Source: an uncultured Erysipelotrichaceae bacterium
Lineage (GTDB): Bacteria; Bacillota_I; Bacilli_A; RFN20; CAG-826
Assembly: GCA_902797855.1 (NCBI GenBank)
Contig: CADBUI010000002.1
Coordinates: forward strand, 1 to 64,000
Reading direction: 5' to 3'
Length of the DNA: 64,000 nucleotides
The notes below the pieces were generated by a model. The model saw only the letters and a list, made by a program, of their open reading frames with translations. It had not been told where the DNA came from and made no database searches. Below, piece after piece: positions 6,386 through 34,354 of the stretch (position 1 is its first letter; every line of letters starts with the position of its first letter). The position numbers were made by a program, and so were the translations under genes.

Positions 6386-6422
6386 AAAAGAGTGCGAAAA
6401 AATCTATTTTCACTCTTTTTTA
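6386..6422 (+). terminator. Intrinsic terminator between the cyclase and gdpP
   Basis: AAAAGAGTG (6386-6394) pairs with CACTCTTTT (6411-6419) and ends in T's to 6422. Its position shows that an in-frame upstream extension of gdpP beginning at 6392 cannot be the real start. Confidence 0.7.
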
Positions 6423-6438
6423 CTTATAGCATTGTTGC

Positions 6439-6444
6439 TATAAT
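6439..6444 (+). promoter_or_regulatory. -10 element of the gdpP-rplI-dnaB-walJ operon
   Basis: TATAAT, ten bases before the ATG at 6455, preceded by the previous gene's terminator. The -35 is poor. The predicted transcript would start about four bases before the ATG, which is a leaderless arrangement. Confidence 0.5.
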
Positions 6445-6454
6445 TAAAGTCAAT

Positions 6455-8488
6455 ATGAATAAGCAATTAAAGAACATTGAAATCTTTACCTTCATTCTAA
6501 TTGTCGTCGAAGTGCTTATTTACACTGGTTTTTCAGTCTTTTATTTTGGTGATATCATCGGTGCGAAGCAATTCTTTGAATCCAATTTAGTCGTTGTTTT
6601 CTTTGTCTTAGTTGCTTTAACTCTCATCAACATTTTAGCGACTCTTATTACAATCTATAGTTTTGCAAAAGCTAGACGTAAATCAGATTTAAAAGCTGCC
6701 GACCTTCTTGGTGATGATATTCAAGAAGCATATAACTTCGGTATGATTGGTCTAGTGATTGTTGATGAACATAATACTGTCTTATGGGTTAATGAATTAT
6801 TTAGAGATCGTAAAATCGATATTCTTGATAAAAATATCTTAGAGTGGCAACCACACTTAAATGATTTACAAGACGCTCCAACAGAAGCATCGATTAAACT
6901 TGAAATCGAAAATAGATATTATAGTGTCAAATTCCTAGATGACGCTGGACTATATATCTTTAAAGATATTACTGAACTAGAAATATCTGAACAAACTCAA
7001 AAAAGAGAAGCCGTTGTTGTTGGTTACGTTTTAATTGATAACTATTCAAATATTTCTGAAAACGCTGATGACGCTAATGACGTTATTTCTAAAGTTAGAA
7101 ATGCTATTTTTGAATATTTCAAAGATATGAATGTCGCTATCCGTCGATCTAAAGCTGATACATATTTCATGGTTTGTAATTATGAATCGCTTGAAAAGAT
7201 GAAAGCTGATAAGTTTTCAATTATTGATAAGATTCGTGAACTTGGTGAAAAAGAACCAGTTCCACCAACCTTATCAATTGGTATCGCTCATGACTTCCCA
7301 GGAATTTTAAAACTTTCTGACATGGCTAGTAGCGCGCTTGAAACATGTATGGCGCGTGGTGGTGACCAAGTTGTCGTTTCTAAATTTGGTGAAGATTTAC
7401 TTTATTATGGTGGTAAAACTAGAGCAACTGAATCTAGAAACAAAGTTAAAGTCCGTGTTGTTAGTGATACTTTAGTATCCTTAATTAAAAATAGTGGAAT
7501 CGTTCTCATCATGGGTCACACTGGTACAGATATGGACGCAATTGGTGCATGCCTAGGCGTGAAGGCTATCTGTGATTTCTGTAAAGTTAAATCATGGGTT
7601 GTTTATAATCCACGTGCAACTGAAACAAAGACTCGTGGAGCGATGACTAACTCCTTTACAAGAGAAGAATTAAGTGAAATTACTCTTTCACCTGCGGAAG
7701 CAATTGAAAAAGCAAAATCCAAATCCAATGTTCTTCTTATCGTATGTGACGTAAGCGATCCTACACGTGTTATTGAACCAAAACTTATCGATACGATTGA
7801 TAAGATTGCAATTATTGACCATCACCGTAAGAGTGAAAAATATATCGATAACAACATTTTCTCCCATATTGATGTTGCCTCTTCTAGTGCTTCAGAAATT
7901 GTGACTGAATTTATTCATTATTCATTCTCTAACCCAAAAATTAAATTACCTGCAAGTTATGCGACAATTATGCTTTCTGGTATTTTCTTAGATTCGAATT
8001 ATTTCAAATCTAGAAACACATCCACGAACGCTTTTGAAGCTGCGATGGTACTTAAAGAATATGGCGCGGATAACTTTAAGGCTGATGATTTCCTTAAAGA
8101 TGAATATGAAGAAGCTGCTTTAGTTAATAAGATTTCTTCCACTATGTACTCTCCATTTTATGGAGTGGTCATCTGTAAAGCTGATGAAAACGATATTATT
8201 GAACCTGCTGCACTTTCTAAAGTCGCAAATCAATGTATGCAAATGAAAGGCATTAATGCCGCCTTTGTTATTGGTAAATCTGATGAAAGAACTGTGAGAA
8301 TCTCCTGCCGTAGTGATGGTACTATTTCAGTTCAAATTCTTGCTGAAAAACTCGGCGGTGGTGGACATCAACAAAGTGCCGCTACTGAAATTGACAACAT
8401 CACAATTGATGAAGCAGAAGAAAGACTTAATGAAGTCTTAAAAGAAAATCTAAATGACGCTCGTGTGAGTGAATTCGAGGCTAAATAA
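6455..8488 (+). CDS. gdpP: Cyclic-di-AMP phosphodiesterase GdpP
   Basis: A 677-residue protein with the full GdpP plan: two N-terminal membrane helices, a PAS-like domain, a degenerate GGDEF domain without the GGDEF residues, and a DHH/DHHA1 phosphodiesterase. Visible catalytic motifs are GHTGTDMDA (from G354), the DHH motif D455-H456-H457, and GGGGHQQSAA (G634 onward). It hydrolyses c-di-AMP to pApA and so affects potassium balance, cell-wall stress and beta-lactam tolerance. The start chosen is the ATG just after TATAAT; an upstream in-frame start lies within the preceding terminator. It heads the gdpP-rplI-dnaB cluster conserved across Bacilli. Confidence 0.95.
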   Translation: MNKQLKNIEIFTFILIVVEVLIYTGFSVFYFGDIIGAKQFFESNLVVVFFVLVALTLINILATLITIYSFAKARRKSDLKAADLLGDDIQEAYNFGMIGLVIVDEHNTVLWVNELFRDRKIDILDKNILEWQPHLNDLQDAPTEASIKLEIENRYYSVKFLDDAGLYIFKDITELEISEQTQKREAVVVGYVLIDNYSNISENADDANDVISKVRNAIFEYFKDMNVAIRRSKADTYFMVCNYESLEKMKADKFSIIDKIRELGEKEPVPPTLSIGIAHDFPGILKLSDMASSALETCMARGGDQVVVSKFGEDLLYYGGKTRATESRNKVKVRVVSDTLVSLIKNSGIVLIMGHTGTDMDAIGACLGVKAICDFCKVKSWVVYNPRATETKTRGAMTNSFTREELSEITLSPAEAIEKAKSKSNVLLIVCDVSDPTRVIEPKLIDTIDKIAIIDHHRKSEKYIDNNIFSHIDVASSSASEIVTEFIHYSFSNPKIKLPASYATIMLSGIFLDSNYFKSRNTSTNAFEAAMVLKEYGADNFKADDFLKDEYEEAALVNKISSTMYSPFYGVVICKADENDIIEPAALSKVANQCMQMKGINAAFVIGKSDERTVRISCRSDGTISVQILAEKLGGGGHQQSAATEIDNITIDEAEERLNEVLKENLNDARVSEFEAK

Positions 8489-8489
8489 T

Positions 8490-8939
8490 ATGAAAGTTAT
8501 ATTACTTCAAGACGTTAAAGGTATTGGCAAAAAAGGTGAAACTGTCGAAGTTAAAGACGGTTACGCCGCTAATTTTCTTATTCCTCGTAGACTTGCCGTT
8601 AAATTAACTGATAAATCTCTTGAAGTGCTCGATAAACAAAATAAAGATGCTGCTGAGCAAGTGAGACAAGATACGCTTAAAGCTCAAGAAGTAGCGAAGA
8701 AACTTGAATCAATTGTTTTAGAATTCGCCGCTAACACCGGTAGTGATGGAAGAATGTTTGGAACCATCTCAAATAAACAAGTTGAAGAGAAGCTTAGAAA
8801 TGAATATAAGATCTCAATCGACAAACGTAAATTCATTGATAAGACTATCGTGGATAGACTTGGTTACACCAAATTAAGAATTGAGTTATATAAAGGTGTA
8901 GAAGGGGTTGTCACTGTTCATGTCGGTGAAAAGAAATAG
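8490..8939 (+). CDS. rplI: 50S ribosomal protein L9
   Basis: A 149-residue protein beginning MKVILLQDVKGIGKKGE, the classical L9 N-terminal signature, with NFLIPRRLA and a C-terminal TVHVGEKK. The length fits L9 (about 148-150). It is a structural protein of the large subunit at the base of the L1 stalk. The chosen ATG at 8490 follows the gdpP stop by one base; a GTG start at 8469 inside gdpP would add a non-conserved extension. Co-transcription with gdpP and dnaB is conserved in Bacilli. Confidence 0.97.
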   Translation: MKVILLQDVKGIGKKGETVEVKDGYAANFLIPRRLAVKLTDKSLEVLDKQNKDAAEQVRQDTLKAQEVAKKLESIVLEFAANTGSDGRMFGTISNKQVEEKLRNEYKISIDKRKFIDKTIVDRLGYTKLRIELYKGVEGVVTVHVGEKK

Positions 8940-8947
8940 GTGATATT

Positions 8948-10447
8948 ATGCCAAAAAAAGAACATGTTCCATATATTTCTTTAGAAAAGCTTCCACATAA
9001 CGATGATGCTGAAAAAGCTGTCTTAGGTGCGATGCTTCGTTCAAACACCATTTTAAATGACGCCTTAGCAAGACTAGATGTCGTAGACTTCTTTGAAGGT
9101 AACGCGAATCATAGAGCGATCTATAAAGCTATGCTCGACTTATTTAAAGAAGGTAAGCCAGTTGATCCTCAAACCGTTATTAATCAACTCATTAATAACA
9201 AAGAACTAGAAGTTGCAGGAGGTGCGAATTATCTTCTTGAACTTTCTGATTCAATTATTACATTCGCGAATATTTCAACATATATTCAAGACGTTAGAGA
9301 CCAAGCAATCTTAAGAAGATTTTTATTAACTTTAAACGAAATTCAAAATGATTATTTAGATAACGAAGTTGATAAAGATTTCCTTAACATTGCTGAAACC
9401 AAAATTAATAAAGTTACTGAACTTAGAAATATTGGAGATTTTAGAAGTGCGGCAAGTATCGCGGAAGTTGTCCAAAAAGATTTAGACCAACTTAAAGTTT
9501 CCACGACTGACGATCAAGTTACTGGTGTTCCTACTGGATATCCTAGACTTAATCAACTCACACATGGTTGGCAAAAAGGCAACTATATTGTCTTAGCTGC
9601 TCGTACAGGTGTTGGTAAAACTGCCTTCTCTCTTAATCTTGCTCTTAATGCGGCAGTTAGAGGAGTTCCAGTTGCATATTTCTCACTTGAAATGAGCGCG
9701 GAAGATTTATTCAAACGTTTAGTTTCTGGTGATTCAAACGTTAAATATAATACCCTTTTAACAGGTTATGAACTTAATAGAGACGCTAGACTACGTTTAC
9801 AACAATCTTGTCAAAGACTTGGTTCACTTAAATTCTATGTTGAAGATACTTCCGGTATTAATTTGATTGAACTAGTTTCTAAGATTAGAAAACTCAAAGC
9901 TCAAGAAGCTGATTTAAGTCTTGTCTTTGTCGACTATATTGGTTTAGTTACCACAAGCGGAAAAAGAAAAAGTGATTCTAGACAACTTGAAATCCAAGAG
10001 ATTTCTACAACCTTAAAGAAGATTGCTCTTGAACTTAAGATTTCAATTGTGGCGGTTGCTCAACTTAACCGTAAGGTTGAAGAACGTGGTGGTGAACCAA
10101 TGCTTAGTGACCTTCGTGAATCTGGTTCTCTTGAACAAGATGCTGATATTGTTATTTTAATGGCGGAAGCTAAAGCTGATGAAAGAAAAGCTTTCGGTAA
10201 GAAAGATGCACCTGATAATGGTGCGGCTCAAATTAACTCCATGGTTGATACAGTCGCTAAACAAGAAGGTGGAGCGAACGCTAAATTCATCAATATCATC
10301 ATCGCTAAAAATAGAGCGGGTCAACAAGGTAGAGTACCTCTCTTATTTAGAAGAGACTACGTTAAATTTGATACACCAAGCACTGAGGGTGAAGAAAAAC
10401 TTGCCCAAATTGAAAACGCTCGTGTTGAATATCTAAAAGGCGAGTAA
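8948..10447 (+). CDS. dnaB: Replicative DNA helicase DnaB
   Basis: A 499-residue hexameric helicase (called DnaC in Bacillus). The N-terminal domain begins with the conserved NDDAEKAVLGAML, followed by a linker and the RecA-like domain with the Walker A motif AARTGVGKT (K224), the FVDYIGL Walker B strand and LSDLRESGSLEQDAD. An AGGT site precedes the ATG. The stop overlaps the walJ start by one base (TAATG). A serine- and alanine-containing insertion near residues 410-440 (KKDAPDNGAAQ...) makes it somewhat longer than the typical 450-460 residues. Confidence 0.96.
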   Translation: MPKKEHVPYISLEKLPHNDDAEKAVLGAMLRSNTILNDALARLDVVDFFEGNANHRAIYKAMLDLFKEGKPVDPQTVINQLINNKELEVAGGANYLLELSDSIITFANISTYIQDVRDQAILRRFLLTLNEIQNDYLDNEVDKDFLNIAETKINKVTELRNIGDFRSAASIAEVVQKDLDQLKVSTTDDQVTGVPTGYPRLNQLTHGWQKGNYIVLAARTGVGKTAFSLNLALNAAVRGVPVAYFSLEMSAEDLFKRLVSGDSNVKYNTLLTGYELNRDARLRLQQSCQRLGSLKFYVEDTSGINLIELVSKIRKLKAQEADLSLVFVDYIGLVTTSGKRKSDSRQLEIQEISTTLKKIALELKISIVAVAQLNRKVEERGGEPMLSDLRESGSLEQDADIVILMAEAKADERKAFGKKDAPDNGAAQINSMVDTVAKQEGGANAKFINIIIAKNRAGQQGRVPLLFRRDYVKFDTPSTEGEEKLAQIENARVEYLKGE

Positions 10448-11190
10448 TGAAAATATATATTCTTGAAAGTGGTAGTAGAGGAAACTCTGCTTTATTAGAA
10501 GATAGTGGACACCTTTATCTAATAGATATGGGTGTTCCTTTATTTGTCCTTGAGAATGCTTTAAATGCCCTTGGACATAAACTTATTGATATTGAAGCAA
10601 TGTTATTAACTCATGAACACGGTGATCACACTCGTGGAATTCAATATCTTCCACCTTTACCAATTTACACCACGAAAGGTACTTGGGAAGGAAATAATGT
10701 TATTGATATAACTCCATACAAGGAATTTAAATTAAACAACCTAACTATTCTTCCAGTATCAATTTCTCATGACGTTAATGATCCAGTTGCGTTTGTGATT
10801 TCTAATGGCACTGAAAAATTAGTCTACCTCACCGATTCAGGATATATTCCATCTAAGACGCTTGAATATTTAAAAGACGCAGATTATTACGTTATCGAAT
10901 CAAATTATGACTATAAACTTTTAGTAGCGACAGGTAGACCTCGTTCACTAATTACACGTATCTCAAGTGATCACGGACATCTATCAAATAAAGATTCCGC
11001 TAGATATATGGTTGGTTTAGTTGGACCTCACACAAAAGCAATTGCTTTAGCCCATATCTCACTAGAAAGTAACACTCACGAAGTAGCGATTGAAACATAT
11101 CGAAAAATATTTAAAAAAGCTCATCTTAATCTTGATGATTATAATGTGCAATGTGCAAGTCAATACGAGATGACTTTCTTAGGAAAATAA
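10447..11190 (+). CDS. walJ: Metallo-beta-lactamase-fold protein WalJ/YycJ
   Basis: A 247-residue MBL-fold hydrolase with the metal-binding signature THEHGDH (H56, H58, D60, H61) near the N-terminus, and later metal ligands in LTDSG and the SSDHGHLS segment. YycJ/WalJ proteins are implicated in coordinating DNA replication with cell division or in nucleic-acid processing. In most Bacilli walJ lies in the walRK operon; here it follows dnaB with a one-base overlap, which fits a role near replication. It is the last gene of the gdpP operon and a terminator follows at once. Confidence 0.88.
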   Translation: MKIYILESGSRGNSALLEDSGHLYLIDMGVPLFVLENALNALGHKLIDIEAMLLTHEHGDHTRGIQYLPPLPIYTTKGTWEGNNVIDITPYKEFKLNNLTILPVSISHDVNDPVAFVISNGTEKLVYLTDSGYIPSKTLEYLKDADYYVIESNYDYKLLVATGRPRSLITRISSDHGHLSNKDSARYMVGLVGPHTKAIALAHISLESNTHEVAIETYRKIFKKAHLNLDDYNVQCASQYEMTFLGK

Positions 11191-12072: not shown

Positions 12073-12411
12073 ATGAAATACGATGAGTGGTCTAAGTTAG
12101 ATACTGTTAAGGATGATAATAATCCTTTCACTCCAATGTATGTTTATCCATCAGGAGAAATGTTTTTTGTTGAACCTGCGTTTTATACACAGCTTACATA
12201 TTTGAAACAAATATATCCTGATAGATATCGCTCAATTATAGATGAAATGGAAAGATTAGTAAAGAAGTCGAAAAAAGTTATTTTCACTCATGATTATGAA
12301 TTTCCACTTATTAAGAGAGACGATTTTATTTATTTAGAAATCACCGATGTCACCGACCCTCTTCAGATTTATGTTGAAGATAAATCACGTGGCAGTGACT
12401 ATGGAGATTAG
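12073..12411 (+). CDS. Unknown 112-residue cytoplasmic protein
   Basis: A small acidic protein starting MKYDEWSKLD with no membrane segment, signal peptide or recognised motif; aromatic residues are frequent. I do not recognise a family. The start is set by the promoter at 12034-12062, which excludes the upstream TTG. The stop (TAG) lies three bases before the ATG of the UDP-glucose-dehydrogenase-like gene, so the two are almost certainly one transcript. That is the only functional clue. Confidence 0.7.
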   Translation: MKYDEWSKLDTVKDDNNPFTPMYVYPSGEMFFVEPAFYTQLTYLKQIYPDRYRSIIDEMERLVKKSKKVIFTHDYEFPLIKRDDFIYLEITDVTDPLQIYVEDKSRGSDYGD

Positions 12412-12414
12412 TGA

Positions 12415-13713
12415 ATGAACTTTACATTTATTGGTCTAGGATATGTAGGTCTAGTGAACTCTGTTTTACTGGCCTCTTTTTATCATAATGTTATCGGTTA
12501 CGATATTGATAAAAATAAAATTGAACTATTAAAACAAGGAGTGTCAACGATTGAAGAGCCTAATCTTCAGACTTTATTAAGTGAGGCTAAAACAAAACTT
12601 AGATTCACAAGCAATGCGCAAGACGCAATATCAATTAATAACATCATCGTCATCTGTGTTGATACTCCAAATAAAAATGGTCAAATTGATTTAACTCATT
12701 TTAATGAAGCACTTGATGATATCGCTCGTTACGCTGAAAAAGATTGTTATATCATCATTCGTTCTACTGTCCCTATTGGCACTAATAAGTACACAAAAGA
12801 ATATTTAGAAAGTAGATCCAAACATAAATTCCAAATTATTTCGATGCCTGAATTCATGTCTGAATCCACAGCGGTTTATGACACAATTAATCCATATAGA
12901 CTTGTTATTGGAGTGAATAACCAAGAATCTATCGAATTTGCTCAATCAATAACCCCTGTATTCTTAACTAAAAAAGTTCCAGTACTTATTACCACTCCAG
13001 AAAATGCAGAGTTAATTAAGTTGTCTTCTGATGCATTTATCGCTACTAAGATTTCATTCACTAATTCGCTTGCAAAAATCTGCGAAGATGTCGGAGCGGA
13101 TATTGACCGTGTTAGCTTAGGAATGTCTCTTGATCCAAGAATTGGAAAATCTTTCCTTAAACCAGGAATCGGTTATGGTGGAGTTATGGAAGAAACAATT
13201 GATCCAAATTGTTGGATTCTTTCAAAGAAAGAGACTAACTTCGAAGTAGTGAAAGCTGCGATGGAAGTTAATAAGAAACAAGCTACGCGCCTTCTTGATA
13301 AAATATTTAAAAAATATAAAGCCGTTAGTTCACTCACCATCGGAGTTCTTGGCGCCTCATATAAAGCAAACACTGAAGATATTAGAAATTCCGCTGCTAT
13401 TGAAATAATTAGAACTCTTCTTGATAAGGGTGCGGATATTCAACTATACGATCCTCTTTGTATGGATAAAGTTGAAAAAGTATTCTCTAGACACACCCAC
13501 ATCAAATATAAGAATTATGCAAAAGATGCAATTAAGGGAACGCATCTTGTGCTTATCTTAACTAACGCTGATGAATTTAAACTTATAAAACCAGAAGATT
13601 ATATTTCGCTTATGATTGCTAAACCAGTCGTGATCGACGCTCATAACATTTACAAAGTAAATGAAATGAACGGAATAGAATATATTTCTAACGGGCGAAA
13701 GATTAATAAATAA
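12415..13713 (+). CDS. UDP-glucose/GDP-mannose dehydrogenase-family protein lacking the catalytic Cys
   Basis: A 432-residue protein with the N-terminal NAD-binding motif GLGYVGLVNSVLLA, the central helix with the conserved lysine region (ELIKLSSDAFIATKISF), and the C-terminal UDP-sugar-binding domain (GVLGASYKANTEDIRNS). The family oxidises UDP-sugars to uronic acids in two steps through a thiohemiacetal on the cysteine in GGSCFPKD. Here residues 255-262 read GGVMEETI, so the cysteine position (258) is methionine and the PKD is gone; the nearest cysteine is C266. It is either a variant enzyme with altered chemistry or a non-catalytic homologue. It is co-transcribed with the small gene at 12073 and followed by a terminator. 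Confidence 0.85.
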   Translation: MNFTFIGLGYVGLVNSVLLASFYHNVIGYDIDKNKIELLKQGVSTIEEPNLQTLLSEAKTKLRFTSNAQDAISINNIIVICVDTPNKNGQIDLTHFNEALDDIARYAEKDCYIIIRSTVPIGTNKYTKEYLESRSKHKFQIISMPEFMSESTAVYDTINPYRLVIGVNNQESIEFAQSITPVFLTKKVPVLITTPENAELIKLSSDAFIATKISFTNSLAKICEDVGADIDRVSLGMSLDPRIGKSFLKPGIGYGGVMEETIDPNCWILSKKETNFEVVKAAMEVNKKQATRLLDKIFKKYKAVSSLTIGVLGASYKANTEDIRNSAAIEIIRTLLDKGADIQLYDPLCMDKVEKVFSRHTHIKYKNYAKDAIKGTHLVLILTNADEFKLIKPEDYISLMIAKPVVIDAHNIYKVNEMNGIEYISNGRKINK

Positions 13714-13746: not shown

Positions 13747-14880
13747 TTATTTCTTTTTACTTGAGATTGTTTTAGCTTGTACGTTTTTGTTTTGTGGTTG
13801 ACTTGGCTTATTGATAACTTCAGCGTTTTCAGGTCTAAGTGTTTTCATTGATAGCCACATTAATCTCATACCGATAAGAAGTGGGAATGCGATTTGTGCA
13901 AATGAGGCAATCATGAATCCAAAGACAAGTGAGAGTACTGCTGGAGCAGGTGCTGCCCAGTAAACAATCTTTTGAGTGTCCCAGATTGTATAAATTCTAA
14001 ATGGATTCATTTTTCCTCTAGTGAGGAGATAGACCATAAGTCCCATAAAGACAACAATACCGAGGTTAATACCAAACATGATTAATGTTGTTTGCCACAT
14101 GGCAGTGTATTTATTTGTGAGGTAAGTGGTGTTAAAGAATGCTTTCCAGTTTTGCCACACTCCACGAGTATATGCTCCATAAGCACCTTCGAATTGTGGA
14201 TTTGTTCTTGTTTCTTTAGTTAGCATTTGTCCATCAACATAGACAAGTGCAAGACTATTAATTCCAAATCCTTCTTCAACGTGTTTATAATCACCATAAA
14301 GTGTTCCGCTTACAGAACCATTGTTAGCTCTATAAAGTGCGCCCATTAAAGTGTTTCTCGCAAAGATGAAATAGTTACTTGTTCTACGAACAATACTAAC
14401 TGAACCATCTTCTTTAATATTTTTAACTTGAGCGATTTCGTTTAAATAATCTTGAGTTAATGTTCCATCGATATAATAGATTTCAAAATCAACATTATTT
14501 TCGGCATTTAAATGTTTGTAGCAATGATGTCCGAACGAGTTAACTTCTGGATAGGCCATCGCCCAAGCTTCTGCTCCGCTTTTTCCAGCGTAACTAAAGC
14601 GAAGAATCTTTTCACCTTGCTCTTGGTGGACTGACATATCTGCACCTTTATCTTGAATATCTTCAGCAAAGCGCATTGTCGCAACATCATATCCGTTTGC
14701 ATATGTATTAACAAAATCAGCACCATTCTTATTAGCAGTATTCACGAATGTTGGAACAAGGCAAATAATCATGGAAACAAATAACATAATAACTGCAAAA
14801 TACCATGGTAATTTTCTACCACCAGTAACGCAGGCTTCGTTATTAATTAAACTCTTTAAAACTAACTTAAAATTTTTCAT
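13747..14880 (-). CDS. Unknown membrane protein with large extracytoplasmic domain
   Basis: A 377-residue protein read leftward. One hydrophobic helix lies near residues 25-45, followed by a soluble domain of about 200 residues, then three hydrophobic segments (about 270-345) and a lysine-rich tail. The N-terminal helix and the late membrane block place the middle domain outside the cell. I do not recognise a family; some resemblance to DUF1189-type proteins is possible but not secure. The ATG is seven bases downstream of a TATATT-like -10, with no Shine-Dalgarno sequence. Confidence 0.7.
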   Translation of the reverse strand: MKNFKLVLKSLINNEACVTGGRKLPWYFAVIMLFVSMIICLVPTFVNTANKNGADFVNTYANGYDVATMRFAEDIQDKGADMSVHQEQGEKILRFSYAGKSGAEAWAMAYPEVNSFGHHCYKHLNAENNVDFEIYYIDGTLTQDYLNEIAQVKNIKEDGSVSIVRRTSNYFIFARNTLMGALYRANNGSVSGTLYGDYKHVEEGFGINSLALVYVDGQMLTKETRTNPQFEGAYGAYTRGVWQNWKAFFNTTYLTNKYTAMWQTTLIMFGINLGIVVFMGLMVYLLTRGKMNPFRIYTIWDTQKIVYWAAPAPAVLSLVFGFMIASFAQIAFPLLIGMRLMWLSMKTLRPENAEVINKPSQPQNKNVQAKTISSKKK

Positions 14881-15005: not shown

Positions 15006-15400
15006 GGGGTCGAACAAGTTTCGACAGGGATGATGCCTGGCCTTAACTGCAGCTGAGTGGTGACATAATCACCAAACAAAAATAACTGACAACAGTTATA
15101 TGAGAGCACCACGTGCTCAATCCCTCTGCTTAGCTTAATTTAGCTTCCGACATAGGATCCGACGCATCGCGCCGGGCAGAGCGCACCTCAAGGTTTTCGT
15201 CCTTCACGCTTGAGTCGTGTGTCATACCAAAGGAATAAGTGCTAAAAGTTGATGAGTTAATTAGCAACGAAAAATTGTTCATCTAGTGAATGATAGTTCG
15301 TCGATATCAAATCATTCATGAAGCGCAAATATCATCTAAGCTGTAGACGTTATCGTAGGGCCTTCCTTGGACACGGGTGCAATTCCCGCCGACTCCACCA
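15006..15400 (+). ncRNA. ssrA: Transfer-messenger RNA (tmRNA)
   Basis: The 5' end GGGGTCG (15006-15012) pairs with CGACTCC near the 3' end to make a tRNA-like acceptor stem, and the gene encodes the terminal ACCA (15397-15400). TTTCGACAGGG and GGGTGCAATTCCC (T arm) are tRNA-like parts. The length, 395 nt, is typical. The best tag frame starts at GAC (15088) after TAACT and ends at TAA (15136-15138): DNSYMRAPRAQSLCLA, 16 residues. tmRNA rescues stalled ribosomes and tags the unfinished protein for proteolysis. The tag's CLA ending and internal arginines are unusual, and a perfect 6-bp hairpin lies within the tag codons. Confidence 0.95.
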
Positions 15401-16997: not shown

Positions 16998-19364
16998 ATG
17001 TTTAGAATCAAAAAACGTGATGGTAGTATTGTTGACTTTGATCTTAAGAAGATTGAAAAGGCTATTGAGAAAGCTTTCATTGCCGAGCACAAAGAATACA
17101 CTCAAGATGTCATCGAACTTCTCGCATTAAAAGTCACTGCTAACTTCAATCCAAAAATTAAAGATAATCTTGTCTCTGTTGAAGATATCCAAGACTCCGT
17201 TGAAATTGTTTTAATCCAAGCTGGTTATATCGATGTCGCTAAATCCTATATTTTATATAGAAAGCAACACGAAACCCTTCGTCAAATGAAATCAACTGAA
17301 CTTGACTATAAAGATACAGTTGATAATTATCTAAAACTCAACGACTGGAGAGTTAAAGAAAACTCCACAGTTACCTATTCAGTTGGTGGTCTTATCCTTT
17401 CAAATAGTGGAGCGATCACCGCTAACTATTGGTTAAGTGAAATCTACGATAAGGAAATTGAAGAAGCACATAGAAATGCTGATATTCATATCCACGATTT
17501 ATCAATGCTCACAGGTTACTGTGCAGGTTGGTCACTCAAACAACTCATCAAAGAAGGTTTAGGTGGTGTTGTTGGTAAGATTACATCTGCTCCAGCATCT
17601 CACTTATCAACTCTTTGTAACCAAATGGTTAACTTCCTCGGAATTATGCAAAACGAATGGGCTGGTGCGCAAGCATTCTCCTCATTTGATACCTATCTTG
17701 CACCATTTGTAAAGAAAGATAACCTCACTTATAAAGAAGTTAAACAATGTATCCAATCCTTCATTTATGGTGTTAATACACCATCCAGATGGGGTACTCA
17801 AGCACCATTCACCAATATTACATTAGACTGGACCGTACCAAACGATATGGCTGAACTTAACGCTATTGTTGGTGGAAAAGAAATGGACTTCAAATACAAA
17901 GACTGTGTTGAAGAAATGAGAATGGTCAACAAAGCCTTCATCGAAATCATGATTGAAGGCGACGCTAATGGACGTGGATTCCAATATCCAATTCCAACCT
18001 ACTCAATTACAAAAGATTTCGACTGGTCAGAAACAGAAAATAATAAATTATTATTTGAAATGACCGCTAAATACGGAACTCCATATTTCTCTAACTATAT
18101 CAATTCCGATATGGAACCAAGTGATGTTAGAAGTATGTGCTGCCGTTTAAGACTTGACCTTAGAGAGCTTCGTAAGAAATCTGGTGGTTTCTTTGGTAGT
18201 GGTGAATCTACAGGTTCTGTCGGTGTTGTCACCATCAATATGCCAAGAATCGCTTATCTTGCTACTGATGAAAAAGATTTCTATGCACGTTTAACAAGAC
18301 TTATGGATCTTTCCGCAAGATCACTTAAGATTAAACGTAATGTTATTACTAAACTACTTGAAGCTGGATTATATCCATACACCAAGAGATATTTAGGCAC
18401 ATTCAATAACCACTTCTCCACAATTGGTTTAGTTCGTATGAATGAAGCTTGTCTAAACGCTCGTTGGATTAAAGAAGATTTATCCCACGAAAAAGCTATC
18501 CAATTCACAAAAGATGTTCTTAACTTCATGAGAAACAAACTCTCTGATTACCAAGAACTCTATGGTGACTTATATAACCTTGAAGCTACACCAGCCGAAT
18601 CAACAGCATATCGTTTAGCTAAACACGATAAGAAACGCTATCCAGATATCATTACTGCTAGTGATAACGCAGATGCTCCATATTACACAAATAGTAGCCA
18701 TCTCCCAGTTAACTATACAGAAGATATCTTCGCTGCTCTTGATATTCAAAACGGTTTACAAACCCTTTATACATCTGGAACAGTCTTCCATTGTTTCTTA
18801 GGTCAAAAATTACCATCTTGGAAATCGTGTATGAATTTAGTTCGTAAGATTGCTGAAAACTACGAAATTCCATATTACACAATGTCTCCTACATACTCTG
18901 TATGTAAAGACCACGGTTATATCACCGGTGAAGTTTATGAATGTCCACACTGCCATAAACCAACTGAAGTTTATAGCCGTATTACTGGTTACTATCGTCC
19001 AATTCAAAACTGGAACGTTGGTAAGACAGAAGAATTCAAGAATCGTAGAGAATACGTTTATGAGCATTCTCATCTTAAGAGTGAAGGCAAATCCTGCGCA
19101 TGTGAACATGAAGAAAAATCAAATAACTCCGTTAATGAAATTACATTATTCGCTACAAAGACTTGCCCAAACTGCAAGATGGCAAAGATGCTCTTAGACA
19201 AAGCTGGTATTAAATACACAGTTGTTGATGCTGAAGAAAACAAAGAAAAGACCATTTCATTTGGTATTAAAAAGGCTCCAACCCTTCTTGTTCCAAATGG
19301 TGATTCTTATGATGTTTACGATAATGCATCAAACATCAAAAAATACATTGAAAATAGAAACTAA
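16998..19364 (+). CDS. nrdD: Anaerobic (class III) ribonucleotide reductase NrdD with fused C-terminal glutaredoxin domain
   Basis: A 788-residue glycyl-radical enzyme that reduces ribonucleotides without oxygen. In order: an N-terminal ATP-cone (KRDGSIVDFDLKKIEKAI), the ten-stranded barrel with the cysteine-containing RSMCCRLRLD loop, a zinc site (C636, H639, C649, C652), and the glycyl-radical motif RITGY (G664). A linker containing CACEH precedes a glutaredoxin/NrdH-like domain (about 712-788) with an active-site CPNC (C723, C726) and the cis-proline APTLLV. NrdD normally ends soon after the radical loop, so the extra 100 residues are a fusion. trxB follows two bases after the stop, which suggests an NADPH-TrxB-glutaredoxin electron route instead of formate. 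AAAGGAG precedes the ATG. Confidence 0.95.
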   Translation: MFRIKKRDGSIVDFDLKKIEKAIEKAFIAEHKEYTQDVIELLALKVTANFNPKIKDNLVSVEDIQDSVEIVLIQAGYIDVAKSYILYRKQHETLRQMKSTELDYKDTVDNYLKLNDWRVKENSTVTYSVGGLILSNSGAITANYWLSEIYDKEIEEAHRNADIHIHDLSMLTGYCAGWSLKQLIKEGLGGVVGKITSAPASHLSTLCNQMVNFLGIMQNEWAGAQAFSSFDTYLAPFVKKDNLTYKEVKQCIQSFIYGVNTPSRWGTQAPFTNITLDWTVPNDMAELNAIVGGKEMDFKYKDCVEEMRMVNKAFIEIMIEGDANGRGFQYPIPTYSITKDFDWSETENNKLLFEMTAKYGTPYFSNYINSDMEPSDVRSMCCRLRLDLRELRKKSGGFFGSGESTGSVGVVTINMPRIAYLATDEKDFYARLTRLMDLSARSLKIKRNVITKLLEAGLYPYTKRYLGTFNNHFSTIGLVRMNEACLNARWIKEDLSHEKAIQFTKDVLNFMRNKLSDYQELYGDLYNLEATPAESTAYRLAKHDKKRYPDIITASDNADAPYYTNSSHLPVNYTEDIFAALDIQNGLQTLYTSGTVFHCFLGQKLPSWKSCMNLVRKIAENYEIPYYTMSPTYSVCKDHGYITGEVYECPHCHKPTEVYSRITGYYRPIQNWNVGKTEEFKNRREYVYEHSHLKSEGKSCACEHEEKSNNSVNEITLFATKTCPNCKMAKMLLDKAGIKYTVVDAEENKEKTISFGIKKAPTLLVPNGDSYDVYDNASNIKKYIENRN

Positions 19365-19366
19365 AA

Positions 19367-20275
19367 ATGTTTGACGTAATTGTTATTGGCGCAGGCCCGG
19401 GCGGAATGACCGCTGCACTTAATGTTAAAAGAGAAGGAAAATCAGTTCTTCTTTTAGAACACGAAAACTTCGGTGGTCAAATCGCCATGTCACCTCGCGT
19501 TGAAAATATTCCATCTATTAAAGAAATATCTGGTGAAGAATACGCTGCTCAAATCTTTGATCAAATCACAGATTTAGGCGTTGAGTTCGAACTTGAAGAT
19601 GTCGAATCCATTTCAAAAGATAACGAGATCTTCAAAGTAAAAACAAACTATAACGAATATGAAGCTAAAAGCGTAATTATTGCGACTGGATGTGAACATC
19701 GCACAATGGGCATTGCTCGCGAAGCAGAACTCGTTGGTCATGGTGTGAGCTATTGTGCAGTATGCGATGGTGCTTTCTATAAAGATGAAGAAGTAGTGGT
19801 TATTGGAGACGCTAATACAGCAATTCAATACGCCATTGTCTTAGCAGGATATTGCACTAAAGTTCATGTCTGTGCACTATTTGATCACTTATTTGCAGAT
19901 AAGATTCTCTGTGATAGATTATCAAAATTCGCAAATGTAGATGTTCGCTATAATATCTCTTTAGAAGAATTTGTGGGCAATCCTGAATTAACTGGTTTAA
20001 TCTTCAAAGATACAAAAACTGGTGAGAAAGTTGAATATAACTGCAAAGCTGTATTCATCGCTATCGGACAAATCCCTCATAACGATATATTCAAAGAATA
20101 TGTTGATTTAGAAAAAGGATATATTGTTACTAACGAGAGTATGGAAACAAAGACTCCTGGACTATTCGCAATCGGAGATTGTAGAGTCAAAAAATTCCGC
20201 CAAGTTGTAACAGCGGAATCCGATGGAGCGATTGCAGCAATTGAAGCAAGTCACTATGTTGACTTACATCAATAA
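19367..20275 (+). CDS. trxB: Thioredoxin reductase-like flavoprotein
   Basis: A 302-residue NAD(P)H/FAD enzyme. The N-terminal FAD motif is GAGPGGMTAAL; the redox-active disulfide is CAVC (C130, C133) in the usual CDGAF context; the NAD(P)H-binding motif GDANTA departs from the common GGGxSA; the C-terminal FAD motif is AIGDCR. It reduces thioredoxins or glutaredoxins. Two bases separate it from nrdD, so the physiological partner is most likely the glutaredoxin domain fused to NrdD. Its last seven bases overlap the end of convergent nrdG. Confidence 0.9.
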   Translation: MFDVIVIGAGPGGMTAALNVKREGKSVLLLEHENFGGQIAMSPRVENIPSIKEISGEEYAAQIFDQITDLGVEFELEDVESISKDNEIFKVKTNYNEYEAKSVIIATGCEHRTMGIAREAELVGHGVSYCAVCDGAFYKDEEVVVIGDANTAIQYAIVLAGYCTKVHVCALFDHLFADKILCDRLSKFANVDVRYNISLEEFVGNPELTGLIFKDTKTGEKVEYNCKAVFIAIGQIPHNDIFKEYVDLEKGYIVTNESMETKTPGLFAIGDCRVKKFRQVVTAESDGAIAAIEASHYVDLHQ

Positions 20276-31027: not shown

Positions 31028-32138
31028 AGAAGAAACTATGGTTAGTGAAGTTTCAGAAGTTAAAGAAGATAGACTTTATATCGAAGCTGAACCAATCTAT
31101 CGTCCAGAAAACGCCTCCCGTAACAACAAGAAGGGTTCTAAACTCAAAGAACACGATGGTACCTCACTTAGTACTATTAAAGGTGATAAAGAAAACATCG
31201 TAACCCTTTCCCATGTTGATATTGGTTTTAAACTTGGCACTGATTTACGTGTTGTAGTTAAAGATTTTAACCTCGCTATTAAACGAGGTGAAATTTTTGG
31301 TTTAGTTGGTGAATCCGGTTCAGGTAAAACCACAGTTGGACGTTCTATTATGAGAATTATTCCAATCTTAGATGGTGAAATCCGTTATAATGGTCACCTC
31401 ATCAGTGGTAATATCGGATCCAAACGCGCTAAAGAACTTAAAACCAAGATTCAAATGATTTTCCAAGACCCAAGTGCTTCGCTTAATGATAGAGCTAACG
31501 TTGACTATATCGTTAGTGAAGGCTTAAGAGCGTTCCATTTATATAAATCAGAAGAAGAACGCCTTGAGAAAGTCGAAAACATCATGAAACGTGTTGGACT
31601 CCGTCCAGAACATTTAAAACGTTATCCACACGAATTTAGTGGTGGTCAAAGACAACGTATTGGAATCGCTAGATGCATGGTAGTTAATCCAGAAGTCGTC
31701 ATCGCCGATGAACCTATCTCCGCCCTTGACGTTTCTATCCGTGCTCAAGTACTTAACTTAATTAAAGAATTCCAAAAAGAAAACAATATGACAGTTATCT
31801 TTATCGCGCACGATTTAAGTGTCGTTAAATATATCTCTGATCGTATTGGTGTTATCTATGGTGGACGTCTTGTTGAACTTGCAAGTGCGAATAGACTATT
31901 TGAAATGCCACTTCATCCATATACAAGAAGTTTGCTTTCAGCAGTCCCTATTCCAGATCCACAAGTCGAAAGATATAAAAAGGTCGTTACTTATGATCCA
32001 ATGCAACACCATTATAGATGGGATGATGTACCTGATTTTTATGAAGTTGAACCAGGACACTATGTACGTTGTAACCACGCTGAACTAAAAAAATACAAAG
32101 AAATTATTTCTAAAGAAAAGAAGGGAGGCAAAAAATAA
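31020..32138 (+). CDS. oppF: Oligopeptide ABC transporter ATPase OppF
   Basis: A 372-residue ABC ATPase: Walker A GESGSGKTT, Q-loop FQDPSASLND, signature FSGGQRQRI, Walker B VVIADEPISALDV and the H-loop FIAHDLSV. A charged N-terminal extension of about 65 residues precedes the ABC core. The C-terminal part has the oligopeptide-transporter tail ending EVEPGHYVRCNHAE. It overlaps oppD (ATG inside the oppD end) and its own stop overlaps the next start by one base (TAATG). Confidence 0.92.
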   Translation: MNKEETMVSEVSEVKEDRLYIEAEPIYRPENASRNNKKGSKLKEHDGTSLSTIKGDKENIVTLSHVDIGFKLGTDLRVVVKDFNLAIKRGEIFGLVGESGSGKTTVGRSIMRIIPILDGEIRYNGHLISGNIGSKRAKELKTKIQMIFQDPSASLNDRANVDYIVSEGLRAFHLYKSEEERLEKVENIMKRVGLRPEHLKRYPHEFSGGQRQRIGIARCMVVNPEVVIADEPISALDVSIRAQVLNLIKEFQKENNMTVIFIAHDLSVVKYISDRIGVIYGGRLVELASANRLFEMPLHPYTRSLLSAVPIPDPQVERYKKVVTYDPMQHHYRWDDVPDFYEVEPGHYVRCNHAELKKYKEIISKEKKGGKK

Positions 32139-34354
32139 TGGAATACATTGAACCAAAGCCAGTGGAAGAAAAGCCACACGCTAAGCGCAATAAAATCATT
32201 ATTGGATCTACTATTGCTGCCCTATCTTTAGCCGCTATTGGTGTTGGATATTATTTCCTCATTGATAAAATCTTTATGGATTTCGAGAATATTGAAATTT
32301 ATGACTACTCATATAAATATGACGAAAATAAAAATGTTATCGGAACCATTATTAATACTTTAAAAGATGACGCAGAAATTCCTGCTCACTTACGTATCCC
32401 AAGGAAACTTGGTGGCTATCCAGTTATTGAACTCGCTGCAGGTAGTTGTGAATATTTCCCAACTCTTGAAAGCGTTGATTTCCCAGACACAATTAAAACC
32501 ATCGGTGCTGAAGCATTTAAAGAATGTATTAACTTATCAAGCTTTAACGCTCCTCGTGATCTAGAAGAAATTGGTACTGATGCATTCATTGATACCAAAT
32601 GGTTCGATGATCAAGAAGATGGCGAAGTCATGATTGGTAAATTCCTTTATGCATATAAAGGCGATATGGAAGAGGATACTATCTTAGTTGGTAGTGAATC
32701 TTCATCTCTTCTTGATGAATATCCAGATGCAGATGTTATCGACTTAAGTAAATACACTCATATGTCTAATGGTGTCTTTAAAGGAAAGAGCCGTGTTCGT
32801 GCAGTTGAATATCCAACTACATTAACTAAAGTTAATAATGATACATTCGCGGATTGTTTAAATCTTGAGAAGGTTATTTTACCTGCAAACGTTACATCAA
32901 TTGGTAATAACGCATTCTCAACATGCTCACTTACTGCACTTCCAGATTTAACTCACATTTATTCAATTGGTGATAGCGCATTCGCCTTTAATAAAATTGC
33001 TGGCGAAATTACAATTCCTGAAAGTGTTCACTCTATTGGATCAAGTGTTTTTAGAAAAAACAAACAACTCACAAAAGTTACTGTTACTGATTCACTTGAC
33101 ACTATTCCAAGTTCCGCATTCCTTGATTGCGAAAACTTAGCACAATTTGTTTTCCCTGAAAGCGAATTTGTTCCTGGAACATCGCATATTAAATCTATTG
33201 GAGCAAGCGCATTTGAAAACACAAAGATCGCTACATTTGATGTTCCATATAACGTTAACACAATCATGAGCCGTGCATTTGCAAAATGTAGTCTACTTAC
33301 AAGTGTAAGTTTATATAACAACACAAGTGCATCTAAGTTCATCAATAGAACTGTTAACTCTGAAGGAGTTTATGGTGATTGGAGAGTTAATGAAGACACC
33401 ATTCAAGGTATTACCTTATTTGGTGATAGTGTCTTTGAAGAAGATTCTTCATTAATGGAAGTTCGCTTAACTAACTCAGATGGCACTAAGACAAATGCAA
33501 ACACTGTTTCTATTCCAGTAACTGTTGTTTCATTTGGTTCTCAATCCATTAGTGGTGGTTCAAAAATCTTCTATAACACAGCAATTACGGAAATTAATTT
33601 TGCTCAAAATCCAACCGCTAGTGTAGCGCCATTCTTTAGAGGACTTACCTATATCGCTCCATCACTATGTGAAAATTGTCATTCACTTACAAAAATAATT
33701 ATTCCTGAAAATTCACTTATTACATCAATCCGTTCTGCAGCATTTAAAAATTGCAATAGCCTAGTTAACGTTACAATTCCTGCTTCAGTTAGCTCAATTG
33801 GTGACGCAGTATTTGAAGGATGTGGAAATTTAGGAAGCGGACTTGTGTTTGCAAGTGGATTTAACACAACAAGCTTCAAAGCTTATTCATTCAAAGGGAC
33901 TGCAATTGCTAGTGTAACAGCACCTGTTTCACTTGCAGATATTGAAACTAGCGCTTTTGAAGGATGTACATTCTTAACTAGCTTTGATTTAACTTACACA
34001 ACTGGTTTAGCAACCATTGGTGATAGCGCGTTTAAAGGATGCTCTTCACTTTCATCCTTACAACTACATCAATCAATTACTCGTATTGGTGCTAGTGCAT
34101 TTGAAGGTTGTTCATCACTTACTTCATTATTCTTAAGTGTAAACATTGCTAACCTTCCAAATGCGGTGTTTAAAGGATGCTCATCCTTAGATACCTTAGT
34201 GCTCACTGCTCCAAGTGTTGTTACTATTGGCAATGAAGCTTTAGATGGTTGTACTTCATTAACAAAGATTAAAGTTCCTAACGAGTTGGTCGATGCTTAT
34301 AAAGCATCATCTCAATGGGGTACTTATACTATCGAAGCAATTCCTGGTGAATAA
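32138..34354 (+). CDS. Membrane-anchored BspA-type leucine-rich-repeat (LRR_5) protein
   Basis: A 738-residue protein with a short Lys-rich cytoplasmic N-terminus, one membrane helix (about 25-46) and an extracellular region made of roughly 20 LRR_5 repeats of about 23 residues. The typical unit is ...IGDSAFKGCSSLSSLQLHQSI..., with AF, C and L at fixed places. BspA-like repeats bind host or microbial surface ligands. There is no C-terminal anchor; the N-terminal helix holds it. Its start overlaps the oppF stop (TAATG), so it is the sixth gene of the opp operon. That location suggests a role in peptide capture, which is not proven. A terminator follows. Confidence 0.88.
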   Translation: MEYIEPKPVEEKPHAKRNKIIIGSTIAALSLAAIGVGYYFLIDKIFMDFENIEIYDYSYKYDENKNVIGTIINTLKDDAEIPAHLRIPRKLGGYPVIELAAGSCEYFPTLESVDFPDTIKTIGAEAFKECINLSSFNAPRDLEEIGTDAFIDTKWFDDQEDGEVMIGKFLYAYKGDMEEDTILVGSESSSLLDEYPDADVIDLSKYTHMSNGVFKGKSRVRAVEYPTTLTKVNNDTFADCLNLEKVILPANVTSIGNNAFSTCSLTALPDLTHIYSIGDSAFAFNKIAGEITIPESVHSIGSSVFRKNKQLTKVTVTDSLDTIPSSAFLDCENLAQFVFPESEFVPGTSHIKSIGASAFENTKIATFDVPYNVNTIMSRAFAKCSLLTSVSLYNNTSASKFINRTVNSEGVYGDWRVNEDTIQGITLFGDSVFEEDSSLMEVRLTNSDGTKTNANTVSIPVTVVSFGSQSISGGSKIFYNTAITEINFAQNPTASVAPFFRGLTYIAPSLCENCHSLTKIIIPENSLITSIRSAAFKNCNSLVNVTIPASVSSIGDAVFEGCGNLGSGLVFASGFNTTSFKAYSFKGTAIASVTAPVSLADIETSAFEGCTFLTSFDLTYTTGLATIGDSAFKGCSSLSSLQLHQSITRIGASAFEGCSSLTSLFLSVNIANLPNAVFKGCSSLDTLVLTAPSVVTIGNEALDGCTSLTKIKVPNELVDAYKASSQWGTYTIEAIPGE

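Follow-up and report, generated by a model that had tools for sequence, protein, structure and literature searches.

The window analysed here, a stretch of 64,000 nucleotides from an uncultured Erysipelotrichaceae bacterium, carries an NDP-sugar dehydrogenase homologue without the cysteine on which the chemistry of this family depends. The question is whether such a protein is a decaying relic, an altered enzyme or a protein retained for something other than oxidation. The open reading frame starts with ATG and runs for 432 codons with no stop or frameshift. The following features of the gene were used in the comparisons.
12415 to 13713, plus strand: Cys-less NDP-sugar dehydrogenase homologue, 432 aa, with full-length Pfam and TIGR03026 matches.
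12433 to 12450, plus strand: NAD motif GLGYVG, residues 7-12, intact by motif comparison.
13030 to 13032, plus strand: Asp206, at the central-helix position where the alignment has an invariant catalytic Asn (S. pyogenes UGDH Asn208), the role of that Asn being taken from PMC4794789.
13171 to 13212, plus strand: rewritten active-site loop GYGGVMEETIDPNC, residues 253-266, with the Cys and the following PKD gone and one codon shorter.
13642 to 13644, plus strand: His410, where the comparison of conserved sites has the Arg of the C-terminal GRN motif.

The three Pfam domains were each matched over nearly their full length (NAD-binding, 5.7e-50; central, 4.3e-23; UDP-binding, 2.7e-27), and the TIGR03026 model of NDP-sugar dehydrogenases scored 352 bits (cut-off 189.8). 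By sequence homology the protein is a member of family TIGR03026; as an enzyme of this family, it lacks two tested defining features, the catalytic Cys and Asn208. The closest solved structures are UDP-glucose dehydrogenases. In the family model search, the cut-offs of the UDP-glucose-specific equivalogs were not reached (308 bits for TuaD; cut-off 700). The name UDP-glucose dehydrogenase, which the initial annotation had used for the homology, is unproven, as GalU (TIGR01099) was below its cut-off in all 14 genomes of the genus searched (best E-value 9e-15), ten of which carry the dehydrogenase gene, intact or not. Some genomes of genus g1 encode intact UGDH-like proteins though GalU was above cut-off in none of those searched, and the substrate of these proteins may be other than UDP-glucose. 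A search with PF01704, for another type of UDP-glucose pyrophosphorylase, was silent everywhere, controls included, and is thus uninformative.

In the window protein, GYGGVMEETIDPNC stands in place of GYGGSCFPKDTNGLY, that is, GGVMEETID where the family has GGSCFPKD. The absence of the catalytic Cys, as initially claimed, was confirmed together with V257, M258 and C266, and the fold and both ligand sites are kept; cysteines are found at 81, 111, 223, 266 and 349. Since the loop is one codon shorter than that of the closest homologue (GYGGSCFPKDTNGLYW), residue pairing within it is uncertain: Cys260 pairs with V257 or M258, and Asp264 with T261 or I262, or with E260 if KDT is set against EET. 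The general-base position thus holds Thr, Ile or, in another alignment of the loop, Glu, and the Asp is lost or shifted. The S. pyogenes numbering used here was transferred by motif and not by aligning the S. pyogenes sequence itself.

In a published comparison of 229 NDP-sugar dehydrogenases the catalytic Cys was invariant; the same study listed 18 invariant residues and identified Asn208 of S. pyogenes UGDH as a catalytic residue (PMC4794789). Exactly three of the 18 (Asn208, Cys260 and Asp264) are lost or displaced in the window protein and the rest are kept. To judge from the sequence, these three are the residues of the chemistry, while those that bind NAD and the UDP-sugar remain. The changes to Asp206 and His410, both at conserved sites, had been overlooked initially. 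In human UGDH, Cys276 forms the thiohemiacetal and Asp280 activates water (PMC3184952). It had been proposed that the second oxidation step (thiohemiacetal) should fail because the catalytic Cys is missing, and we agree that the normal two-step oxidation should fail; because the Cys, the Asn and probably the Asp are gone, neither oxidation step should run normally.

The NAD-site residues present in the window protein are GxGxxG, Thr83, Ser117 and Thr118, and those of the UDP-sugar site are Lys204, GG, Asn287, Lys320 and the inter-subunit Arg. These retained sites suggest binding without turnover. An AlphaFold2 monomer model (pLDDT 81.5) matched BceC best, with a TM score of 0.93. C266 lies about 8-10 residues past the catalytic position, and the geometry of a rescue by this residue could not be judged because the loop there has a pLDDT of only about 55 (63-73 for the same loop in the model of an intact homologue).

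The closest homologues, in G007 and G014 (58 % identity, same locus), have an intact GGSCFPKD loop, and the alignment of homologues showed the VMEE loop to be private to the window genome. The initial annotation had taken intact close homologues as a sign of a local mutation or a pseudogene. Such homologues do exist, but the plain pseudogene that they were to imply was not borne out by the selection tests given below, and the loss of the Cys recurs. A maximum-likelihood tree of 56 proteins, drawn with the loop columns left out, needs three changes of Cys state, of which at least two are forced by well-supported branches. The window protein shares a partly unresolved fork with G007, G014 and their relatives, while G017 falls with the G022 clade and the sister family f3 stands apart. 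Besides the loss in the window lineage, the Cys was lost at least once, and probably twice, more in the order.

All 18 sampled f3 genomes, from four genera, are Cys-less. The loop replacements differ by lineage (VMEETID, TFYPKD, SMLPIS or PVLPFS, and GGPxLxxD in f3). Lys204, the GG pair, Asn219, Asn287, Lys320 and the inter-subunit Arg are kept in all 23 Cys-less proteins. The NAD site is intact in the window protein, whereas most f3 proteins and the G022 clade have changes at Gly9, Thr83 and/or Thr118. The f3 proteins keep Lys204, Asn208 and Asp264, so that f3, with Asn208 and Asp264 kept and the NAD site altered in many members, is the reverse of the window protein. The f3 and G017/G022 proteins share with it the same or a related locus near a 112-aa gene and the UDP-sugar lysines, but the losses are separate. 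One further copy, in G002 (L047:6877-8190), has an intact GGSCLPKD loop, yet its Ser117 is changed to Tyr and GlmU was not found in the genome; it may represent an early step towards the same loss.

Selection on the gene was then compared with that on its neighbours and relatives. The dN/dS values were 0.24 for the window gene against G007 (0.07-0.31 for neighbouring genes in the same pair), 0.06-0.08 for the Cys-less G022, G010 and G008, and 0.01-0.18 for f3 pairs, all of them rough because synonymous sites are near saturation. The f3 dehydrogenase homologue is the best conserved among the locus genes compared (mean identity 0.69; others, 0.32-0.49). In the codon model, a window-branch omega of 1 was rejected (lnL -14500.7 vs -14471.5; 2dlnL about 58), and so was equality with the background, which the window branch exceeds (2dlnL 16.7); branch lengths were at the bound, which makes absolute omegas unreliable, and the likelihood comparisons alone were used. 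The window branch of the tree is 0.53 changes per site long, compared with 0.19 for the intact sister, and identity to G020 is 47 % for the window protein and 62 % for the sister, while most other genes are about equal. The faster branch and the raised omega indicate that the window gene is under relaxed constraint, yet the sequence data also indicate that it is not free of it.

A neutral simulation (300 runs, each stopped once nine of the 11 loop residues differed, with point changes assumed) gave a mean of 19 stops elsewhere in the gene (minimum 7), and none is observed. On average 15.5 of the 62 conserved sites were kept in the simulation, as opposed to 54 in the window gene; the argument would be weaker if the loop had been exchanged in one event. 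The window gene shows neither a disrupted frame nor neutral evolution, the marks of a pseudogene, and these sequence-based tests speak against plain pseudogene decay.

The gene lies in a conserved neighbourhood, in which three further features are needed.
6392 to 11190, plus strand: upstream block of GdpP-like, rplI, dnaB and yycJ-like genes, named by sequence resemblance, which anchors the synteny.
12073 to 12411, plus strand: conserved 112-aa protein with no Pfam or NCBIfam match, ending 3 bases before the dehydrogenase ATG.
13747 to 14880, minus strand: convergent conserved protein of 377 aa with hydrophobic stretches by eye and no family match, which flanks the locus in most relatives.

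In genomes of the same family the order is dnaB, yycJ-like, the 112-aa gene, the dehydrogenase and the convergent gene, with a HAD gene often present before the 112-aa gene and an ATP-grasp (RimK-like) gene sometimes after it. The f3 loci have a different upstream block, usually an alpha/beta-hydrolase gene, and the 112-aa gene near. Intact copies are found at the locus in G007, G014, G015, G002, G020, G064, G090, G110, G209, G171, G271, G176 and others, and Cys-less copies in the window genome, G017, G022, G010, G008 and the 18 f3 genomes. No dehydrogenase gene was detected in 14 of the 24 genomes of the genus, several of which are incomplete, and in G003, G004, G013, G023, G027, G032, G033 and G034 the 112-aa gene lies next to the convergent gene with no dehydrogenase between them.

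Given the spacing of only 3 bases, the 112-aa gene and the dehydrogenase gene likely share a transcript. The initial annotation had suggested the 112-aa protein as a partner of the dehydrogenase homologue. It has matches with an E-value below 0.001 in 42 of 59 related genomes, many of them without the dehydrogenase gene, and at some loci (genera g50 and g52) the dehydrogenase is present with no 112-aa gene called beside it; it is not an obligate partner.

Several other observations were made at these loci and in the window. A RimK-like ATP-grasp gene lies directly upstream of the dehydrogenase solely at intact-Cys loci (9/9; L052:7470-8369 and other c14 loci), and an alpha/beta hydrolase gene lies beside the homologue solely at Cys-less f3 loci. 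In G028, a degenerated yet open 429-aa dehydrogenase copy with 20 of 66 conserved sites left stands by the 112-aa gene (L119:5924-7213), and an intact dehydrogenase of another kind is encoded elsewhere in that genome. Just past the convergent gene, the window has a tmRNA gene (15006-15400, plus strand; RF00023, 97.7 bits). Further along the plus strand are an anaerobic ribonucleotide reductase-like protein whose C-terminus carries a CPNC redoxin-like extension (16998-19364) and a thioredoxin-reductase-like gene directly 3' of it (19367-20275), both by eye. A 738-aa protein on the same strand (32138-34354) partly matches the leucine-rich-repeat adhesin HupY/LrrG, at 119 bits, a score far under the cut-off.

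The window genome encodes a second family member on contig C22, a HasB-type protein of another subtype with an intact YGGYCLPKD loop and 34 % identity to the window protein. It adjoins a GDP-sugar-type glycan cluster (L178) with mannose-1-phosphate guanylyltransferase-like, GDP-mannose 4,6-dehydratase and GmhA-, HddA- and GmhB-like heptose-pathway genes, as well as ABC export and glycosyltransferase genes (by eye).

The supply of UDP-sugars was also compared. Neither GlmU nor GalU was detected in the window genome by profile search. When GlmU was called with TIGR01173 (E-value of 1e-40 or lower), it was found within the genus in four of five genomes with an intact dehydrogenase (G007, G014, G015 and G020), in none of the five with a Cys-less one and in none of the 14 without the gene. 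Over the family the counts were 16/19 for intact and 0/5 for Cys-less genomes (Fisher 0.0013), which by phylogeny amount to about 2-3 independent contrasts, with some genomes incomplete. Exceptions to this link are G002, with an intact loop and no GlmU, and f3, several members of which have GlmU matches; GalU had a clear match in most f3 genomes searched. Loss of UDP-GlcNAc synthesis genes and a deteriorating peptidoglycan capacity have been reported for the RF39/RFN20 gut lineages (PMC7301438), a group to which the window genome presumably belongs.

The reading we prefer, with a probability of about 0.5, is that the window protein is a pseudoenzyme which lost its chemistry after the UDP-sugar supply eroded and which purifying selection retains as a ligand-binding oligomer. 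Its ancestor would have been an NDP-sugar 6-dehydrogenase that was encoded at this locus and still active. Substrate loss was likely the first event, and catalysis would have become dispensable once the supply eroded in the genus. The sequence shows that the nucleophile (Cys), the residue holding the sugar O6 (Asn) and the general base (Asp) are lost or displaced, and that Ser117/Thr118, Lys204 and Lys320 are kept along with the dinucleotide motif and the inter-subunit Arg. Such a protein is predicted to fold and oligomerise like UGDH and to bind NAD and UDP-sugar while being unable to complete the four-electron oxidation. Purifying selection would keep it for a task outside redox chemistry, the simplest candidate being an oligomer that binds or senses in a ligand-dependent way; in f3 the disarmed form is fixed and strongly conserved. 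In favour of this pseudoenzyme reading are the selective loss of the three chemical residues, the intact relatives at the syntenic position, the recurrent loss of the Cys, the selection results, the GlmU pattern in the genus and the UGDH-like model. Against it count the relaxed constraint on the window branch, the many congeners with no dehydrogenase gene, and the few independent events and the exceptions behind the GlmU link. A broader proposal, which we hold tentatively and would not bet on, is that the Cys-less homologues at the locus are a class that evolved repeatedly and is selected for some function other than oxidation, be it UDP-sugar sensing, scaffolding or another reaction; the class would be fixed in f3 and have been reached independently in the window lineage.

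The main rival of the pseudoenzyme reading is slow decay, in which the gene survives as a relic whose constraint weakened after substrate loss and which is heading for deletion, with no selected function of its own. The accelerated window branch, the undetected GlmU and GalU, the congeners in which the dehydrogenase is undetected while its flanking genes adjoin in several, and the wrecked copy of G028 are all in its favour. We nevertheless consider it rather doubtful, as the frame is open throughout, plain neutrality was rejected by both the simulation and the codon test, the dN/dS of the window gene resembles that of its neighbours, and Cys-less forms are strongly conserved in other lineages. 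An altered catalyst, with one redox step or a Cys-independent chemistry (C6 alcohol/aldehyde interconversion, aldehyde-hydrate oxidation or oxidation at another carbon, for example), would account for the intact NAD site of the window protein and for the Lys204, Asn208 and Asp264 of f3, and human C276A does oxidise the aldehyde, though it cannot go to completion from UDP-glucose (PMC3184952). It is improbable, however: the window protein is without Asn208 and probably without the general base, and the replaced NAD-site residues disfavour redox chemistry in many f3 proteins and the G022 clade.

That the window protein is a regulatory subunit of the HasB-type paralogue is very unlikely. The second dehydrogenase is indeed there, but it is of low identity and a different subtype, and no other PF03720 protein was above cut-off in 16 of the 18 Cys-less f3 genomes or in G022 and G010, so that such a role is unlikely as a general rule. 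An artefact of the draft assembly or its sequencing, for which the single genome of a single strain might speak, is the least credible explanation of all in view of three unlinked changed sites, a clean frame, conserved synteny and no indel-pair explanation. Chance or sequencing error is an implausible cause because the loop is wholly rewritten along with two other separate sites while 54 of 62 conserved sites are kept elsewhere; the change is real as far as one genome can show. A compensating frameshift pair was rejected as the origin of the loop, since the motif is restored in no shifted frame of the DNA. Oxidation at C4, hinted at by PDB 9dh0, was also rejected, as the UDP-4-keto-xylose there was made by E. 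coli ArnA and not by UGDH (PMC11713868).

Compared with TIGR03026 proteins of the TuaD-like UDP-glucose 6-dehydrogenase type (PDB 3gg2, 4a7p and BceC 2y0e), the window protein is homologous over its whole length and shares the three domains, the NAD motif, the central and C-terminal Lys and the inter-subunit Arg, but not the catalytic Cys and Asn; the general base is lost or shifted and the GRN Arg is replaced. The intact orthologues of G007, G014, G015 and G020 (47-58 % identity) share its gene order and, unlike it, retain the GGSCFPKD, PEF and SN motifs together with GlmU. Human C276A and C276S likewise have the Cys removed, but they are laboratory mutants with the active-site Asn and Asp kept. 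No description of a natural Cys-less UGDH homologue or UGDH pseudoenzyme was found in the open-access literature searched.

For annotation, these results advise caution, as UDP-glucuronate synthesis is not to be assigned from family hits alone. For the enzyme family, they point to repeated loss of the catalytic Cys, two to three times or more, at a single chromosomal locus of small-genome Bacilli; in one of these cases the disarmed protein has been retained throughout a bacterial family (f3). These would be natural, replicated cases of the passage from enzyme to pseudoenzyme, with intact sister proteins as controls.
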